Shown: piece after piece, positions 1 through 6,369 of the stretch
Layout: every line of letters begins with the position of its first letter
How positions within the stretch are numbered: the stretch's first letter is position 1
Source: an uncultured Lachnospiraceae bacterium
Lineage (GTDB): Bacteria > Bacillota_A > Clostridia > Lachnospirales > Lachnospiraceae
DNA length: 7,699 nt
NCBI GenBank assembly: GCA_902767195.1
Contig: CACXGS010000327.1
Coordinates: 1 to 7,699, forward strand
Reading direction: 5' to 3'
Notes under the pieces: model-generated
What the model saw: only the letters and a program-made list of their open reading frames with translations
What the model was told of the DNA's origin: nothing
Databases searched by the model: none
Position numbers and translations under genes: made by a program

Positions 1-593
1 CCCGCCTCCCCGTCTATAAGAAGAGCAAGGACCATGTCCTCGGCATCGTGAACATCAAGGATGTATTCATTTTTCACGAGACCCACCGGAACCAGGATTT
101 TGACCTGCGGCGTATTATGAGAAAGCCTTTCTTCACCTACGAGTTCCAGAAGACGGCGGCCCTCATGGATGAAATGCGCAGCAACTCCATCAGTTTTGCC
201 GTGGTCCTTGATGAGTACGGTGTTACAGCCGGCCTTGTCACCATGGAAGATCTGATCGAGGAAATCATCGGAGATATCCGGGATGAGTTTGATGAGGACG
301 AGGAGAATATGATCCGCAAGGTAGGGGACGGGGAATATGTGATCGAGGGAAGTACCAGGATCGATGATATCAACGACCGGCTGGGAACGGAGATCGAATC
401 CGGCGAATATGATTCGATAGGAGGGCATATGATCGGCCTTCTTGACCATATACCCGAGGAGGGAGAGACCGTCATGGAAGGGAATCTCCTCTTCTGCGCC
501 CATAAGATGGACGCCAACCGCATCGAAACGGTTTATATGAAGATCACTGAAGACTACAATTACGGAAAGGATAACCTGTCACATGATCACTGA
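1..593 (+). CDS. HlyC/CorC-family CBS-domain transporter-like protein, C-terminal part (5' truncated)
   Basis: The open frame enters from the window edge; the first complete codon is at position 3 and reads RLPVYKKSKDHVLGIVNIKD, typical of the end of the first CBS motif in this family. A second CBS motif follows (FAVVLDEYGVTAGLVTMEDL, about 190-250). It is followed by an acidic linker (DEFDEDEEN) and a C-terminal CorC_HlyC domain (about 310-550) with the family pattern GEYVIEGSTRIDDIN...DSIGGHMIGLLDHIP. The N-terminal CNNM membrane domain would lie upstream, so 196 residues are visible. Family members are membrane proteins linked to divalent-cation (Mg/Co) efflux or homeostasis, with cytosolic CBS domains as nucleotide-responsive regulators; the substrate here is unknown. 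A GTG at 48 is internal and not the start. The stop overlaps the next gene by 11 bp, which suggests translational coupling. Confidence 0.9.
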   Translation, partial: RLPVYKKSKDHVLGIVNIKDVFIFHETHRNQDFDLRRIMRKPFFTYEFQKTAALMDEMRSNSISFAVVLDEYGVTAGLVTMEDLIEEIIGDIRDEFDEDEENMIRKVGDGEYVIEGSTRIDDINDRLGTEIESGEYDSIGGHMIGLLDHIPEEGETVMEGNLLFCAHKMDANRIETVYMKITEDYNYGKDNLSHDH

Positions 594-3387
594 CAAACAA
601 AGACAGAGAGATTTTGAATACGAAGCGGATTACCAGACCAAAAGCCGCTATAACCCGGAACAGTGGCGGGGAATCATAAGCTCCGGGCAGATCGATGAAT
701 CCTGCGTCGAACTGCTGAAGATGATCTATTCCTCCTTCAATCATGTGGCCACCCTTCTCCAGCTTTCCTTCCATAAAGAAGTAAGCCAGGAAGACGTTCT
801 CAACACTCTGAACAAGGCCGGACACATTCTGGGTGAAGCCAATGAACTGGAACCGGAAGTGGATTTCTCCGGCAATGAATACTGGTGGTATCTTTTCTGC
901 TGGGGCAAGGAAACCGATGACAAGGTTCTGGAATTTAAGCTTCAGCCGGAGCTCTCTGAGGCGGTCAGCAGTCTCTGGCCTGAGCTGGAAGAAGCCTACT
1001 ATGCTTTTATGAATGACGCGGAGAGGAGCCTTCAGATCCGTTACAGCCAGGAGGATGCTGTATGGATTGCGGCCTCCGTTCTTCTTTATGAGAAATATTA
1101 TCGCTATCCCGGCATTACCACAGACGATATCCTTCTGATGCAATACGAAGTCCAGACCCGGGCCCAGCGGATCTTCGGCCAGGATGTGGACACTGTGGTC
1201 ATCAACCAGATCTGCAATGCCGACGAGCGGGGACACCGCTATAATTACCTTCGGGATATGTACAAGTATTACCGGGTACCCTTCCCGGGAGAGTTTGACG
1301 GAGACCGGGAGAGACCGGATCCGGAGGAGCTTGATTACAGCGCCTACATATACAGTCTGTTTGGCTATATGACGATTGAGAAGCTTTACGACTTCATTTC
1401 CCATGAATATGCTCATCTGGTGGATGAGTCTTATGTGGACCTGACCAATGCCAACGGATTTGTCCGGCTGGCAGCTTTCCTGTCCCGCCAGGGAGGGAAG
1501 AGCCTTTCACCCGATGACACTTCAGAGAAGGCCGCCGGATTCCGGATTGACGGAGCGGACTGTGTGGAGACTTTCCGCATGATCGGGGATTCCCTGATTG
1601 CAGAGTATCCCAGCTTTTCCTATCTTTCCAGAGGCGAGTGGTACCTGGAGCAGGAAGAAAAGATTGCCCCCGCCCTTGAGGACCGGCTGCTCATTGAGAG
1701 CAGAAAGCACACCGGCGCTTACGTAGCGATCCGCACGGTGACAGAAGGGGATAATGTCAACATCGAGACTTCTCTCCATCTTCCCTGGATAGAAGGGGAT
1801 TCCGCTGACAGCGGATTTATGGAAGACATTCGGGAGAAATGTGACAAACTGGTCCTGATGACATCCGCTCCCTTCCAGGTGGAGATCACGGAAGCAGGCA
1901 GTGACGACCCGGTTTCTGCCGGCAAAAAGATCCGGGCCTTCGTCCTCTATTCCTACGATGAGTTCAAGACCATGAAGGAGGAGGACATCATCGGCCTTTT
2001 CGGAGGATCTCTGCAGATCTTTGCATCCTACTACACGGATATCTGCCAGAACTATTATCCCCGGGATGGGGAAGATGCCTCCGAAACACCGGCAGCTGAC
2101 CCGGATAAAGAAACCGCTTCCTCGGGAACAAACACTTCCCTGGAAGACAGCCTGAAGGCAGCTCTCGGATCCAGGCTGACCATCCGGCAGGGGTCCGATA
2201 CGCCGGGACCAACGGTGCGATACCGGGAGATTCCCGACAATCCTTCCACCGACTACATTACCAAAGCCCTGCAGGGTGTCGGAAGCCGGCAGGATAGTAC
2301 AGAGAATTATACAGAGCAGCCCAAAGTCTCCCAAGGTTACGGAGGCCGCCGGGAAACAGCAGAAGAGCCTGTTCCCGTGAGCCGGCCGGACCGGGTAAAG
2401 ATTCCGCCTTCTACCCATCCTGACCGGGCAGATCAGAGTTTTCGTCTCTTCCCTAAAAACACACTGATCAAGGGACCCATGAAGACCCGCAAGTTCCACG
2501 AGGCCATCATGACCACGGTGGGGATCATTGAGGGGAAGGATATCGGCACCCTGGGACTGGAACCGGTTCCGGATATCCTGGAACATTTTAAAGAGTATGA
2601 GGAGGCCGGAAGAATTCTCCATATCGCCTGTCCCGACCTGGGAGAGAGCGGCTACGAGAGCTTTGTGGAAAACGCTGACATGCAGGACGGAATCTTCAAG
2701 ACCTTTGCCAACCGGTGCGGACAGGGCCGTTACGTAGTTCTGATGGAGGAAGTCGACCTGAACTGGAGACACCTTTTCGGTGATACCTCCGTTTTGCTCC
2801 GCCCCAATCGAAGGGAGGGAGCAAGCAGTGAGACGATCATCACCCTGCGATACTCCGGAGAGTCCTTCCGGCTCCCGTCCAACCTTTACATAGTAGGCAC
2901 CTGTGATTCGGTGGTCTGTGAGGATACCATCCTGAGTGCTGTTGATTATGATTTTTATATCCGTCCGGTTTCTCCGGAACCCGGAGTGCTGCATACCATG
3001 CGTGTTGCAGGAATCTCCCTGGAACGTCTCATGCGTGCAATGAACACCAGAATCTCCTACTTCCTGGGACCGGATTACCAGCTGGGAGAAGGCTTCTTCC
3101 TCTCCTCATCCGAGAGAGATGCCCTGGCCTCCCTGGCCAGAGCCTTCCGGGAACAGATCCTGCCGATCCTGGAGAAATGGTTTAACGGAGATATTGAGAG
3201 TATCCGATATGTTCTCGGAGACAATGGAAAGACCAGAAATGATACCATCTTCTACCGTGAGATTCCCTTCCGGGACTCCCTCTTTAAAGGGCAGCTTCCC
3301 GATTCCTTTGACACAGGCCGGCGAATCTACGAGCTGAATGAAGATGCTTTCATGAACCCGAGAAGCTATATCACGATATATGAGTAA
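583..3387 (+). CDS. Large protein with degenerate McrB-like AAA+ domain (probable pseudo-NTPase)
   Basis: This is a 934-residue protein. Residues 1-490 are mostly helical and acidic and I do not recognise them; residues 340-490 may distantly resemble the DUF3578 N-terminal domain of some McrB proteins, a weak guess. Residues 495-615 are a low-complexity, probably disordered linker rich in S, T, P, G, D and E. Residues 618-934 follow the McrB AAA+ core in order: a P-loop equivalent GPMKTRKF (631-638), IIEGKD, FKEYEEAGRI, YESFVENADMQDGIFK, a Walker B equivalent VVLMEEVDLN (718-727), YSGESFRLPSNLYIVGT, a sensor-1 equivalent GTCDSV (772-777), LPILEKWFNGDIESIRYVLGD (split over 860-880) and a McrB-type C-terminus MNPRSYITIYE. 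McrB is the GTP-hydrolysing motor of McrBC restriction. Here the P-loop glycines and Ser/Thr, the Walker B Asp, the sensor-1 Asn and the RRR arginines are replaced, so a structural or regulatory role without catalysis is more likely. The ATG at 583 lies 12 nt after GGAAAGG inside the upstream gene, and no mcrC is adjacent. The frame is intact, arguing against simple decay. Confidence 0.82.
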   Translation: MITDKQRQRDFEYEADYQTKSRYNPEQWRGIISSGQIDESCVELLKMIYSSFNHVATLLQLSFHKEVSQEDVLNTLNKAGHILGEANELEPEVDFSGNEYWWYLFCWGKETDDKVLEFKLQPELSEAVSSLWPELEEAYYAFMNDAERSLQIRYSQEDAVWIAASVLLYEKYYRYPGITTDDILLMQYEVQTRAQRIFGQDVDTVVINQICNADERGHRYNYLRDMYKYYRVPFPGEFDGDRERPDPEELDYSAYIYSLFGYMTIEKLYDFISHEYAHLVDESYVDLTNANGFVRLAAFLSRQGGKSLSPDDTSEKAAGFRIDGADCVETFRMIGDSLIAEYPSFSYLSRGEWYLEQEEKIAPALEDRLLIESRKHTGAYVAIRTVTEGDNVNIETSLHLPWIEGDSADSGFMEDIREKCDKLVLMTSAPFQVEITEAGSDDPVSAGKKIRAFVLYSYDEFKTMKEEDIIGLFGGSLQIFASYYTDICQNYYPRDGEDASETPAADPDKETASSGTNTSLEDSLKAALGSRLTIRQGSDTPGPTVRYREIPDNPSTDYITKALQGVGSRQDSTENYTEQPKVSQGYGGRRETAEEPVPVSRPDRVKIPPSTHPDRADQSFRLFPKNTLIKGPMKTRKFHEAIMTTVGIIEGKDIGTLGLEPVPDILEHFKEYEEAGRILHIACPDLGESGYESFVENADMQDGIFKTFANRCGQGRYVVLMEEVDLNWRHLFGDTSVLLRPNRREGASSETIITLRYSGESFRLPSNLYIVGTCDSVVCEDTILSAVDYDFYIRPVSPEPGVLHTMRVAGISLERLMRAMNTRISYFLGPDYQLGEGFFLSSSERDALASLARAFREQILPILEKWFNGDIESIRYVLGDNGKTRNDTIFYREIPFRDSLFKGQLPDSFDTGRRIYELNEDAFMNPRSYITIYE
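2434..3384 (+). other. McrB-type AAA+ domain with altered catalytic motifs
   Basis: This sub-region covers residues 618-934 of the large protein. Compared with the usual McrB pattern, GPPGTGKTY is GPMKTRKFH (631-639): the lysine position is kept, the two later glycines become K and R, and the Thr becomes Phe. The usual DEINRGN is EEVDLNW (722-728), sensor-1 GTMNTAD is GTCDSVV (772-778), and ALRRRF is AVDYDF (786-791). The non-catalytic scaffold, including NLYIVGT, MNTRISYFLG and the C-terminal SYITIY, stays close to the family. The contrast between a kept scaffold and a lost active site is seen directly; loss of hydrolysis is inferred. Confidence 0.75.
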
Positions 3388-3406: not shown

Positions 3407-3428
3407 GATGTCCCCTGGAAAGGACATC
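3407..3428 (+). repeat. Inverted repeat between the McrB-like gene and the NlpC/P60 gene
   Basis: GATGTCC (3407-3413) and GGACATC (3422-3428) form a 7-bp perfect stem around an 8-nt loop in the 59-nt gap between stop and start. No T-run follows, so it is not a convincing intrinsic terminator. It could be an RNA hairpin that stabilises or processes the transcript, or a small operator. No clear promoter was seen in this gap, so read-through from upstream is possible. Confidence 0.4.
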
Positions 3429-3446
3429 AAAGATTTGGAGGTTATG

Positions 3447-3950
3447 ATGCGTAAACAATTAAAAAAGGGATTACTGTGCCTGTTGACTGCTGCCCTGATG
3501 TGGGGAGCCATGTTCTCCTTCTCTGAAGCGGATACATACTATGCCACTACTGTATCGGGCTACAGGGTAACAAAGGTCAAAAAGGTGAAACTTAGAATGA
3601 CAAAAGGGCAAAAAGTAGTCCGCTATGCTCTCCGCTTTCTGGGCAATCCCTACGAATACGGGGGAACCAGTCTCACCAACGGAACCGATTGCTCCGGCTT
3701 TACCATGAAGATTTTCCGGCATTTCGGCAAAAATATTCCCCGGACTTCATCTTCTCAGAGAAGCGCGGGGAAACGGGTCAAGAGTCTTCGCAAGGCAAAA
3801 CCCGGCGACCTGATCTGTTATGACGGCCATGTTGCCATCTATATGGGCAAGAACCGGGTCATCCATGCCAGCAATGAGCGGGACGGCATAAAGATCACGA
3901 AAAACGCTGCTTACAGACATATTGTCTCCATCCGGCGAATTGTGCGTTAG
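3447..3950 (+). CDS. Secreted NlpC/P60-family peptidoglycan endopeptidase
   Basis: The protein has 167 residues. The N-terminus is a signal peptide: basic MRKQLKK, a hydrophobic stretch (LLCLLTAALMWGAMF) and a likely cleavage after SFSEA near residue 28. A short basic linker precedes an NlpC/P60 domain (about 52-167) with the catalytic Cys in TDCSGF (C82), the His in DGHVAIYMG (H128) and the third polar residue in IHAS (H140). KPGDLICY before the His motif is also typical. Such enzymes cut D-Glu-meso-DAP type bonds in cell-wall peptides outside the cell. There is no SH3 or LysM wall-binding domain, so it is a minimal member. The start was chosen because GGAGG (3437-3441) lies 5 nt before the ATG at 3447; the in-frame ATGs at 3444 and 3408 are less well placed. 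It lies 59 nt downstream of the McrB-like gene and converges with the NUDIX gene. Confidence 0.9.
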   Translation: MRKQLKKGLLCLLTAALMWGAMFSFSEADTYYATTVSGYRVTKVKKVKLRMTKGQKVVRYALRFLGNPYEYGGTSLTNGTDCSGFTMKIFRHFGKNIPRTSSSQRSAGKRVKSLRKAKPGDLICYDGHVAIYMGKNRVIHASNERDGIKITKNAAYRHIVSIRRIVR

Positions 3951-3954
3951 CCGG

Positions 3955-3994
3955 TTAAGATATACCGGACGTCATTAATCGGACGTCATCTTAA
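3955..3994. repeat. Nested inverted/direct repeat at the convergent gene ends
   Basis: TTAAGAT (3955-3961) pairs with ATCTTAA (3988-3994), and inside it the palindrome GACGTC occurs twice (3968-3973 and 3982-3987) so that the copies also pair. CGGACGTCAT is a 10-bp direct repeat (3966-3975 and 3980-3989). The structure spans the 24-bp gap between the NlpC/P60 stop and the NUDIX stop and enters the NUDIX coding end. It could act as a weak bidirectional terminator for the convergent genes, but neither side has a T-tract. Confidence 0.45.
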
Positions 3995-4469
3995 GAAAAC
4001 GAAGAAGGAACTTTTCAGCGAGCGATCCGTCGGCGATCGATCTCGCTGCCTCCTTCCGGGGGAACCACCTGCAGCTGTCGATCTCCTTCTCCGAAACATG
4101 GGACAGGTCTTCCGTATCCGCCACACAGGAGAAGTTCAGCATCAAAGTGTTGGAAGGCGGGAAGTATTCACTCTTCTCAAAATGTACCGAATGAACGTCA
4201 ATACCGATCTCTTCCTTCACTTCCCGGATCACGGTATCTTCCGCATTCTCTCCCTTGTTAATGTAACCCGCCACAAGAATATACCGGTCTTTGCCATACT
4301 GCTTGATCAGCAGTATTTTTTTTCGGTCCGGACTCTGGATCTCCACACTGACTGCCACGGAGAAAACCGGGAAACGAAACTGACCGCAGGTCTCACAGTA
4401 GGGAATCTCTCCCTCGTCCTCCAGGTAGCGGGTGATAAGTTTTGTACCGCATTCCATACAATGTTTCAT
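3975..4469 (-). CDS. NUDIX hydrolase with N-terminal zinc ribbon (NudC-like)
   Basis: The protein has 164 residues. It opens with a zinc ribbon: CMEC (C4, C7) and CETC (C25, C28). The NUDIX fold follows, with a complete Nudix box from G68 to I90 that fits GX5EX7REUXEEXGU exactly (GYINKGE...REVKEEIGI); the glutamates bind the catalytic metal. The ribbon plus Nudix order is that of NudC NADH pyrophosphatases, which hydrolyse NAD(H) and de-NAD RNA caps. The long NudC N-terminal domain is absent, and the diagnostic SQPWPFPxS motif is present only as SEYFPPSNTLM (100-110). The substrate therefore cannot be assumed to be NADH. The start ATG (4467-4469) has AAGGAG 9 nt upstream and its own promoter. 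It converges with the NlpC/P60 gene. Confidence 0.88.
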   Translation of the reverse strand: MKHCMECGTKLITRYLEDEGEIPYCETCGQFRFPVFSVAVSVEIQSPDRKKILLIKQYGKDRYILVAGYINKGENAEDTVIREVKEEIGIDVHSVHFEKSEYFPPSNTLMLNFSCVADTEDLSHVSEKEIDSCRWFPRKEAARSIADGSLAEKFLLRFLKMTSD

Positions 4470-4514
4470 GATTATTCACTCCTTATATCGCTAATTCACG
4501 TCTTTATATTATAA

Positions 4515-4543
4515 AATATAATAGCAAATACCATTCATGTCAA
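4515..4543 (-). promoter_or_regulatory. Sigma-A promoter of the NUDIX gene
   Basis: Read on the minus strand, a perfect -35 TTGACA (4543-4538) is followed after 17 bp by a -10 TATATT (4520-4515). This predicts a start near 4508 and a leader of about 40 nt before the NUDIX ATG. Confidence 0.7.
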
Positions 4544-4683
4544 AAGGGTATGCAAAAACCAACCCTGTATTTAAGCCGATTTTTTGCAAATAATCGTCTG
4601 ACTATTCTGAATATTATTCCCCCAACAATTCACTATTTTTATGTTTTTGACAAAATTTCTTAATAATTTTCTGCAAAAAATAT
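4544..4683. other. AT-rich divergent intergenic region upstream of two promoters
   Basis: The interval from the NUDIX start to the small ORF is about 340 bp. It holds the minus-strand NUDIX promoter, this AT-rich core and then the plus-strand promoter and leader of the small ORF. In the core, TGCAAAAA occurs at 4551-4558 and 4672-4680 and inverted at 4580-4588. AGGGT/ACCCT (4545-4549, 4562-4566) can form a short hairpin. TTGACA at 4647-4652 has no properly spaced -10. No coding potential was seen. The repeats could be regulator sites, but base composition alone could produce them. Confidence 0.4.
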
Positions 4684-4712
4684 CTGACAACTTACTGTTT
4701 CTATGCTAAAAT
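4684..4712 (+). promoter_or_regulatory. Sigma-A promoter (extended -10) of the small ORF unit
   Basis: CTGACA (4684-4689), a 17-bp spacer and TAAAAT (4707-4712), with TGC just before the -10 as in an extended -10 element. The predicted transcription start is about 4719, giving a leader of about 90 nt before the small ORF. Confidence 0.65.
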
Positions 4713-4730
4713 ACTAATAGAAGCTGTTTC

Positions 4731-4771
4731 GATACCGGCTTGGGGAAACGCCCTCCTTTCCCCTGCCGATC
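4731..4771 (+). promoter_or_regulatory. Stable leader hairpin upstream of the small ORF
   Basis: The predicted leader can fold as GAT (4731-4733), CGGC (4736-4739) and GGGGAAA (4742-4748), pairing respectively with ATC (4769-4771), GCCG (4765-4768) and TTTCCCC (4757-4763). That is 14 base pairs with small internal loops and an 8-nt apical loop. An alternative pairing, GTTTC (4726-4730 region) with GAAAC (4745-4749), would break it. No T-run follows, so it is not a standard terminator. It does not match a riboswitch class I recognise. Confidence 0.5.
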
Positions 4772-4808
4772 TGTTTAATTAAAGATTCAATGCAAAGGTG
4801 GTGTTATT

Positions 4809-4916
4809 ATGGATTACAAGAAGAGAATTATTCAGCTGATCAACGGCATAGATGATACCGACGCTTTGCGTCGCATCTATAATTTTATTACTACCTGGTT
4901 CAAGAAAGTGGCATGA
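4809..4916 (+). CDS. 35-residue small protein of unknown function
   Basis: The ATG at 4809 lies 7 nt after AAAGGTGG (4794-4801) and runs 35 codons to TGA. The product starts MDYKKRIIQLINGIDD and ends FITTWFKKVA. It looks like two amphipathic helices (about 3-13 and 17-33) joined by an acidic GIDDTD turn, with basic ends and no secretion signal. It sits alone between its own promoter and a strong terminator 31 nt past the stop. Small helical ORFs of this look occur in Clostridia, in my recollection, but I cannot name a family or function. The product has too many charged residues for a typical type I membrane toxin. The transcript could also act as a small RNA. Confidence 0.68.
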   Translation: MDYKKRIIQLINGIDDTDALRRIYNFITTWFKKVA

Positions 4917-4946
4917 GAAATGCCTGACATAAGGAATTTTTTTGAT

Positions 4947-4980
4947 GCCGTGCGACTTTTTTCGCACGGCTTTTTTTCTT
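4947..4980 (+). terminator. Intrinsic terminator of the small ORF unit
   Basis: GCCGTGCGA (4947-4955) and TCGCACGGC (4962-4970) form a perfect 9-bp stem with a 6-nt loop, followed by TTTTTTTCTT (4971-4980). This is a textbook Rho-independent terminator. Its last bases overlap the -35 box of the next promoter. Confidence 0.93.
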
Positions 4981-5007
4981 GACCGGAATGTGTGAACCAT
5001 TTATACT
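4979..5007 (+). promoter_or_regulatory. Sigma-A promoter of the EutL-like pair
   Basis: TTGACC (4979-4984), a 17-bp spacer and TATACT (5002-5007) give a start near 5014 and a leader of about 42 nt. The first two bases of the -35 box are the end of the preceding terminator's T-tract. Confidence 0.68.
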
Positions 5008-5025
5008 GTTTTATAGGAAATAATA

Positions 5026-5042
5026 CGGGAAATTCCCGGGAA
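5026..5042 (+). repeat. Overlapping palindromes in the EutL-pair leader
   Basis: CGGGAA-A-TTCCCG (5026-5038) overlaps TTCCCGGGAA (5033-5042), giving GGGAA/TTCCC/GGGAA just before the ribosome binding site AAAGGAAG (5041-5048). The loops are too short for good RNA hairpins, so a dimeric repressor operator is the more natural reading. No regulator is identified. Confidence 0.35.
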
Positions 5043-5055
5043 AGGAAGATCACTG

Positions 5056-5712
5056 ATGCGCCAACCGATTAGTGCTCATACCAATATACAGAAGCTGATT
5101 CCCAACGTCAGCCCCAAATACAGAGAACAGCTGGATATTCCGGAAGACCACGAAAGTGTCGGCCTGATCAGCTGCGATAACGAAGAGGTCCTCTATCTGG
5201 CACTGGACGACGCCACTAAGAAGGCCCGGATCCGTGTCAGCCGTGTTCAATCCGCCTATGTAGGAGGACGGAATTCCGCCAATATTTTTAAAGACGCTTC
5301 CATGGCCATCATCTCCGGCCCCAAAGTACAGGATGTCAAAAGCGGCCTGTCCCACATCGAGGATTATGTGAACCGTCACTGCTGCCATTATGCGTCACAG
5401 TCTGATCCGGAGATTACCTACTATGCTGCCTGGACCCCCCGTGCCGGTCTTTATATGAGGGACCGTCTGGGTGTTCCGGAAGGAACGGCTTACTGCCTAC
5501 TCTCCTCCACTCCCATGGAGAGCACCTACGCTCTGGATGCTGCCATGAAGGCAAGCAACACGGAGCTGGCCGAGATGTCGGAGATTTTCACCAGTGACAA
5601 CAAGATATTCGCCTTCCTGACAGGAACGGAATCTGCCTGCCGGTCTGCGGTGGAGGCCTACTGTGCCGCCATTGACCGCTTTGCCGCCAATCCGATGACA
5701 CTGGAGGTGTAA
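5056..5712 (+). CDS. EutL-like tandem-BMC-domain shell protein, copy 1
   Basis: The protein has 218 residues, the length of EutL (about 219). Landmarks follow EutL in order: PEDHESVGLISCDNEEVLYL (30-49), LDDATKKARIRV (50-61), an AYVGG segment (68-71), a second half with YYAAWTPRAGLYMRDR (122-137), AYCLLSSTPMESTYALDAAMK (split over 145-165) and LTGTESACRSA (188-198). EutL is a trimeric shell protein with two circularly permuted BMC domains that tiles microcompartment facets and has a gated pore. The acids I recall as ethanolamine ligands in E. coli EutL (D45, E83) align here with E43 and A81. The ribosome binding site AAAGGAAG lies 7 nt before the ATG. It is the first gene of a two-gene operon; no other eut gene is in the window. 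It is the more divergent copy, with CCH at 109-111. Confidence 0.88.
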   Translation: MRQPISAHTNIQKLIPNVSPKYREQLDIPEDHESVGLISCDNEEVLYLALDDATKKARIRVSRVQSAYVGGRNSANIFKDASMAIISGPKVQDVKSGLSHIEDYVNRHCCHYASQSDPEITYYAAWTPRAGLYMRDRLGVPEGTAYCLLSSTPMESTYALDAAMKASNTELAEMSEIFTSDNKIFAFLTGTESACRSAVEAYCAAIDRFAANPMTLEV

Positions 5713-6369
5713 ATGATGAAGATTACCAGACGATACCCCCGTATGATGAGTCAGAAGATCCTGGCCAATGTTTCGGAGAATTTTGCAAAGGCTTACCGTC
5801 TTCCGGAAGGGCACCGGAGTGTGGGCTTCTTCGCAACCGATAATGATGATATCGCATATCTTGCTGCAGATGATGCCAGCAAGAAAGCCAGAATCAAAGT
5901 CCTGCACGCGGAAACCATGTATGGCGGAAGCCGTTTTGCCGGCGCCCCCAGAACAGGAACCGTCTTTATCTTCTTCTCCGCGGAGAAGATTCAGGACATC
6001 AAAAGTGCCATGGGCTATATTCGCGATTTTGTGGAGAACAACTCCGAACTCTACTGTTTTGATGATGACCGGGCTACCTCTTATTATGCCCAGACCATCG
6101 CAAGGACGGGTCCCTTCTTTGAGGAGTGGGCTAACATCCCTGCCGGCAAGGCATATTCCTACCTGGTGGGAGCCCCGGTGGAGACCAATCTTGCTCTGGA
6201 TAAGGCATTAAAAGCCGGAGATGTCAAAATAGCAAGATTTTTCCCCTCCCCGACCCATGCCAATTCCTGCGGCGCCATCCTGACCGGAACAGAGGCTGCC
6301 TGCCGGGCTGCCACCGCGGCATTTGTCGAAGGATTAAAGGAAGTAAACCGCGACCCTCTCCATTTCTGA
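5713..6369 (+). CDS. EutL-like tandem-BMC-domain shell protein, copy 2
   Basis: This 218-residue paralog of the preceding gene starts immediately after its stop codon. The ribosome binding site GGAGGTG (5703-5709) lies inside the end of copy 1; ATG at 5713 or 5716 could be used, the second being better spaced. EutL landmarks: LPEGHRSVGFFATDNDDIAYL (split over 30-50), AADDASKKARIKV (51-63), SYYAQTIARTGPFFEE (123-138), AYSYLVGAPVETNLALDKALK (split over 147-167) and LTGTEAACRAA (190-200). It is closer to canonical EutL than copy 1 and keeps the D45 equivalent, but has T83 where I recall E83. It probably forms BMC-T trimers, alone or with copy 1. The gene ends 41 bp before a strong terminator, so the operon is just the two shell genes. 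Confidence 0.9.
   Translation: MMKITRRYPRMMSQKILANVSENFAKAYRLPEGHRSVGFFATDNDDIAYLAADDASKKARIKVLHAETMYGGSRFAGAPRTGTVFIFFSAEKIQDIKSAMGYIRDFVENNSELYCFDDDRATSYYAQTIARTGPFFEEWANIPAGKAYSYLVGAPVETNLALDKALKAGDVKIARFFPSPTHANSCGAILTGTEAACRAATAAFVEGLKEVNRDPLHF

Follow-up and report, generated by a model that had tools for sequence, protein, structure and literature searches.

What becomes of a McrB-type AAA+ protein that has no McrC partner and has parted with most of its catalytic residues? The question is raised by a gene in a stretch of 7,699 nucleotides (the window) of contig CACXGS010000327.1, from an uncultured Lachnospiraceae bacterium (assembly GCA_902767195.1). A preliminary description of this gene proposed a McrB-like protein with an erased active site, maintained rather than decaying and possibly a regulator of an active McrB encoded elsewhere. 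The analysis reported here makes it fairly probable that the protein, hereafter the orphan, is a domesticated McrB, likely to serve as a scaffold that assembles into oligomers, or else as a slow nucleotide switch, because it is conserved, single-copy and McrC-less, has a dismantled site and occurs in every genome of its genus that was examined.

The orphan matches no Pfam family at E 1; its homologues carry the precomputed label PF28529, an entry absent from the Pfam copy used and given here by number only. Sequence and fold comparison place residues 621-934 in the AAA+ fold of McrB (T. gammatolerans 6ut3/6ut5, E. coli 6hz4). The active residues of T. gammatolerans McrB named in the accessible part of the published account (Lys221, Thr222, Asp356, Glu357, Asn410, Asp413, Arg425 and Arg426; PMC7680126) correspond to orphan K637, F638, E722, E723, D775, V778, Y789 and D790, respectively, as mapped from the alignment to McrB and the Walker A pattern, with the numbers counted by hand. 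Conservation was assessed in 51 representatives, left from 131 homologues among the matches listed (205 and 179 passed) after removal of 80 with at least 95% identity. None of the representatives has intact Walker motifs. In place of GxxGxGK[T/S], all 51 have lysine at position 634 and phenylalanine or tyrosine at 638, with Lys637 kept throughout; the aspartate of the Walker B DE pair is glutamate (722) in all, followed at 723 by E in 45 and D in six. The MNxxD loop is replaced at positions 775 (D43 N4 G3 S1) and 778 (V41 I9 L1), and the two arginines of sensor II/the arginine finger at 790 (D in 51/51) and 789 (H30 Q14 Y5 F1 L1). No representative retains the magnesium-contacting threonine, the consensus-loop aspartate or the arginine finger, and 47 of the 51 lack the loop asparagine. 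The McrB-like AAA+ assignment with an altered site is borne out, and the alteration is fixed across the family; one nucleotide-contacting lysine, that of Walker A, is invariant. The P-loop changes at 634 and 638 are family-wide, whereas R636 is a local change present in four of the 51 representatives.

Lys637 may perhaps still bind nucleotide, and the orphan could be a slow but working NTPase whose site (K637, E722/E723) is non-standard, a possible though rather unlikely alternative that overlaps the slow-switch form of domestication and draws on analogy with PcdA of Staphylococcus aureus. According to the available sections of its description, PcdA is related to McrB, has degraded Walker motifs, is found at future division sites, binds FtsZ and DivIVA, and still hydrolyses ATP and GTP weakly, with a turnover of ∼0.9 per min (PMC10602043). 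The invariance of Lys637 and E722 and the restriction of position 723 to E or D would suit such an enzyme, but the threonine, the loop aspartate and the arginine finger are gone throughout, the asparagine nearly so, and alanine at these places in T. gammatolerans McrB impairs basal GTPase activity, as stated in the accessible part of PMC7680126. The orphan resembles PcdA, as far as the available text of PMC10602043 describes it, in having a McrB-derived AAA+ domain with degenerate Walker motifs, in lacking McrC and in being clade-restricted. However, PcdA has two EVE domains, for which the orphan has no match in the Pfam search; PcdA lost the C-terminal helical bundle, whereas the orphan keeps predicted C-terminal helices (813-828, 847-866 and 871-878); and PcdA retains the Walker B aspartate and loses the glutamate, whereas the orphan has glutamate in place of the aspartate. 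Because the accompanying domains and the changed Walker B acid both differ, the two families appear to be separate McrB domestications. The evidence supports a maintained McrB-derived pseudo- or near-pseudo-NTPase, with a pattern of site loss that differs from that of PcdA.

The descent from McrB is apparent beyond the AAA+ fold. In whole-genome searches, the nearest non-orphan relatives are McrB proteins (locus and genome numbers, L and G, are those of the comparison sets), and the N-domain is homologous to the N-domains of McrBs from related genomes, in a comparison run with a control; the long-C-terminus McrBs also share the C-terminal LGDN element. Canonical McrB (T. gammatolerans, E. coli) differs from the orphan in having the magnesium-contacting threonine, the Walker B aspartate, the NxxD loop and the arginine cluster, in having a McrC partner and in lacking the additional middle part of ∼350 residues. 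One scored set contained Walker A and Walker B patterns in 17/17 McrB frames and the consensus-loop/arginine pattern in 16/17; in the other, Walker A was present in 18 of 19, the exception (L026) being a frame cut short, and the frames of the two sets are not all independent, some loci being the same place met twice (e.g. L031 and L066). All five typed partner frames (L023, L024, L025, L030 and L031) carry the McrC domain PF10117, the remaining partners being judged by size only. In an unrooted tree of the region from Walker B to the end, the orphans cluster with L022, which is on a long branch (99/96), and the long-C-terminus McrBs are their neighbours.

L022 belongs to a second branch of the same architecture and about one-third identity, together with L078 and with L077 and L081, which are one genome in two pieces. 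Here the Walker A variants are GPSGCGKL, GPKGCGKR and GSKGCGKR, Walker B reads IED, VEN or MEE, and the NxxD loop and the arginine cluster are both absent. In L022 and L078, Lys634 and D790 are missing together. This joint absence, a single contrast, fits a paired contact, as supposed in a different, unlikely reading: a second independent McrB domestication would have turned the nucleotide site into a contact between subunits that is free of nucleotide. In place of the arginine finger, the invariant D790 would face the P-loop of the neighbouring subunit, where Lys634 would have been added to the retained Lys637 and an aromatic residue would occupy the place of magnesium. The ring, permanently locked, would present the middle region and the chaperone-like domain to an essential partner in the envelope or in division.

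In the middle region, 69 of 162 positions (139-300) are invariant in the 51 representatives, and no other protein in 392 genomes contains it as a domain, barring G317 itself and one rejected match. That match, an apparently decayed copy in G024 (L084, E 4.5e-4, 1/392 genomes), was rejected because tblastn with five family members did no better than E 0.72 and long unrelated frames span the locus. For the N-terminal 493 residues, Foldseek returned no match at E 0.001 and a profile search against the sequences of solved structures none at E 10. The predicted fold of residues ∼315-493 may resemble 2a8e, 6vu7, 1ry9 and 1xkp (YktB, YbjN and type III secretion chaperone folds) with moderate Z scores that indicate likeness of fold only. 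A HEYAH motif at 1402-1416 (residues 274-278; H274 and E275 in 51/51, H278 in 50/51) brings a zinc protease to mind, but was set aside as a catalytic site because the second branch lacks it (TDYCK there); the motif probably has a structural role.

The orphan is matched in all 24 genomes of the Anaerobutyricum hallii genus, that of G317, including A. hallii DSM 3353 (G012): 19 are full length and five in pieces (G014, G715, G717, G718 and G720), many of the assemblies being incomplete. Judging by the neighbour genes and by an identity of 60-69% between its orphan and the family members, the window appears to come from this genus. Among 37 other genomes in the same search, only G723 was matched, in the AAA part alone. 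Out of 396 genomes drawn from the family around G012, three (G012 itself, G317 and G178) have relatives along the whole length, and out of 392 drawn from the order around G178, only G178 itself; the remaining matches involve the AAA part or, in a single case, the N-domain. The three genomes of the G178 genus all have the orphan, one in two pieces. Selection on the AAA domain is purifying in four pairs (of 120), with ratios of nonsynonymous to synonymous substitution (dN/dS) of 0.055, 0.059, 0.054 and 0.019, and 0.14-0.48, the highest of the protein, in the linker. The set comprised 16 sequences; L022, L017 and L020 (these two full length) and L013, L015 and L019 (all three incomplete) were omitted, and no pair includes the window because synonymous sites were saturated or undefined. 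The proposal of a maintained rather than decaying gene thus holds, dN/dS being far from 1 in these pairs, the altered residues being conserved in the representatives and the gene being present in all 24 genomes of the genus. The third-position GC of the orphan open reading frame (0.63) lies inside the range of four neighbours (0.58-0.67) and so gives no sign of recent arrival; median identity to L012 is 65.7% for the orphan (20 rows, L022 included) and 76.8% for DnaG (14 rows).

McrC is rare in the genus. None of the eight window frames encodes it, in agreement with the preliminary description, and PF10117 was found in four of the 24 genomes, each time on a contig other than that of the orphan and once as a fragment of 150 bases where a contig ends. 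AAA+ rings of mixed subunits can form, and G006, G007 and G014 have McrB-like and McrC matches, which would suit a regulatory or decoy subunit co-assembling with an active McrB of the same cell. That role is nonetheless very improbable, with McrC in 4/24 genomes against 24/24 for the orphan and the charge at the arginine-finger position reversed in 51/51 representatives; a helper of active McrBC, the regulatory role first suggested, was rejected on this genome distribution of McrC.

The usual gene order is TrmK-like protein (which we take to be TrmK from our own reading of the sequence), RpoD, DnaG, a second sigma-like protein and a HAD-GFO fusion. CNNM, the orphan and NlpC/P60 then run divergently, and after them come TelA, XpaC-like and amidase genes; types come from frames of L012, L002 and L016, the other loci being assigned by clustering. 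CNNM lies immediately upstream in 16 of 20 loci (L019, which starts inside the gene, and L022, from the second branch, omitted), at gaps of -11 to 293 bases, and is linked upstream in 20 of the 24 genus genomes. In G005, G006, G011 and G013, which keep the orphan, it is not linked or not found, and CNNM was therefore rejected as an obligate partner; the pattern favours an operon without obligate partnership. Of the 17 loci that extend far enough, 16 have NlpC/P60 as the gene immediately downstream, three of them on the opposite strand. Defence genes are usually patchy in distribution, and this stable site among housekeeping genes, occupied in 24/24 genomes, with CNNM, NlpC/P60, DnaG, RpoD and TelA as typed neighbours and no PADLOC match, makes it quite doubtful that the orphan is a divergent McrB-like defence sensor with an unrecognised effector, such as a neighbour-encoded hydrolase, in place of McrC. 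Descent from McrB speaks for such a sensor, as does L029 (1-3405), where an N-domain of the orphan/McrB type (model positions 4-137) is part of a protein whose C-terminus matches HNH, adjoining a TIR-domain protein, in what looks like a defence locus. The derived McrB-like GTPases of CoCoNuT systems, with their unusual partners, offer a parallel; in the available text of PMC11090510 they come with a McrC homologue or associated nuclease, whereas none was seen for the orphan.

Features of the window around and within the orphan gene
Feature	Positions	Residues	Strand	Remark
3' end of CNNM/CorC-type transporter gene	3..593		+	11-base overlap with the orphan
McrB-derived orphan protein	583..3387	934 aa	+	
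Winged-helix-like N-domain	655..996	25-138	+	common to canonical McrB proteins
Hyperconserved middle region	997..1524	139-314	+	confined to the orphan family
Predicted alpha/beta domain	1525..2061	315-493	+	possibly YktB / YbjN / type III secretion chaperone-like (fold only)
Variable linker, predicted disordered	2062..2391	494-603	+	predicted local distance difference test score <50 over 495-603; highest dN/dS
Pseudo-AAA+ McrB domain	2434..3384	618-934	+	includes the helical C-terminal part and the LGDN element
Altered Walker A	2473..2496	631-638	+	GPMKTRKF
Altered Walker B	2737..2760	719-726	+	VLMEEVDL
Altered McrB consensus loop	2902..2916	774-778	+	MNxxD to CDSVV
Former arginine cluster	2944..2952	788-790	+	RRR to DYD
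NlpC/P60 cell-wall hydrolase gene	3408..3950		+	

Several other features of these loci deserve mention. In L012, another RpoD-like sigma protein, 262 aa long and with no region 4 match, is encoded beside DnaG (3468-4256) and is matched in 14 other loci, one (L011) at 37% only; it is followed by a fusion of a phosphoglycolate-phosphatase-like HAD with a GFO/IDH/MocA oxidoreductase (4257-5936), matched in 13 other loci. The window itself encodes a tandem pair of BMC-domain proteins (5056-6369), both 218 aa long and the first of them EutL-like. DegV is close by, as is the point where an iron alcohol dehydrogenase gene starts, and no further shell genes are in view. A short frame (4809-4980), read by eye as the 35-residue peptide MDYKKRIIQLINGIDDTDALRRIYNFITTWFKKVA, precedes an inverted repeat that resembles a terminator, GCCGTGCGA...TCGCACGGC, and a run of T.

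Under the favoured scenario of domestication, the ancestor would have been a McrB whose N-domain was winged-helix-like and whose AAA+ ring domain was a GTPase; it would have lost its McrC partner and most of its catalytic residues, gained the family-specific middle region (139-314) and the predicted secretion-chaperone-like domain (315-493), and become a single-copy core gene in one genus of gut bacteria. The pseudo-AAA+ part, with nucleotide perhaps still held by Lys637, would keep the subunits together, and the middle region and chaperone-like domain would bind a client, plausibly one that takes part in division or in the growth of the cell envelope, in the manner of S. aureus PcdA. Taken alone, the envelope or division role is tentative.

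A search of titles and abstracts found no description of the orphan family; in the accessible part of one paper, an A. hallii McrB homologue is aligned as an example of McrB. In the same literature search, PcdA of cocci was the sole bacterial McrB found to have been recruited for housekeeping. A second lineage with another pattern of site loss and new domains, and occurring in all examined genomes of a gut genus, would suggest that McrB has been recruited repeatedly, and the aligned orphan orthologues allow testing how an AAA+ machine turns into a scaffold.
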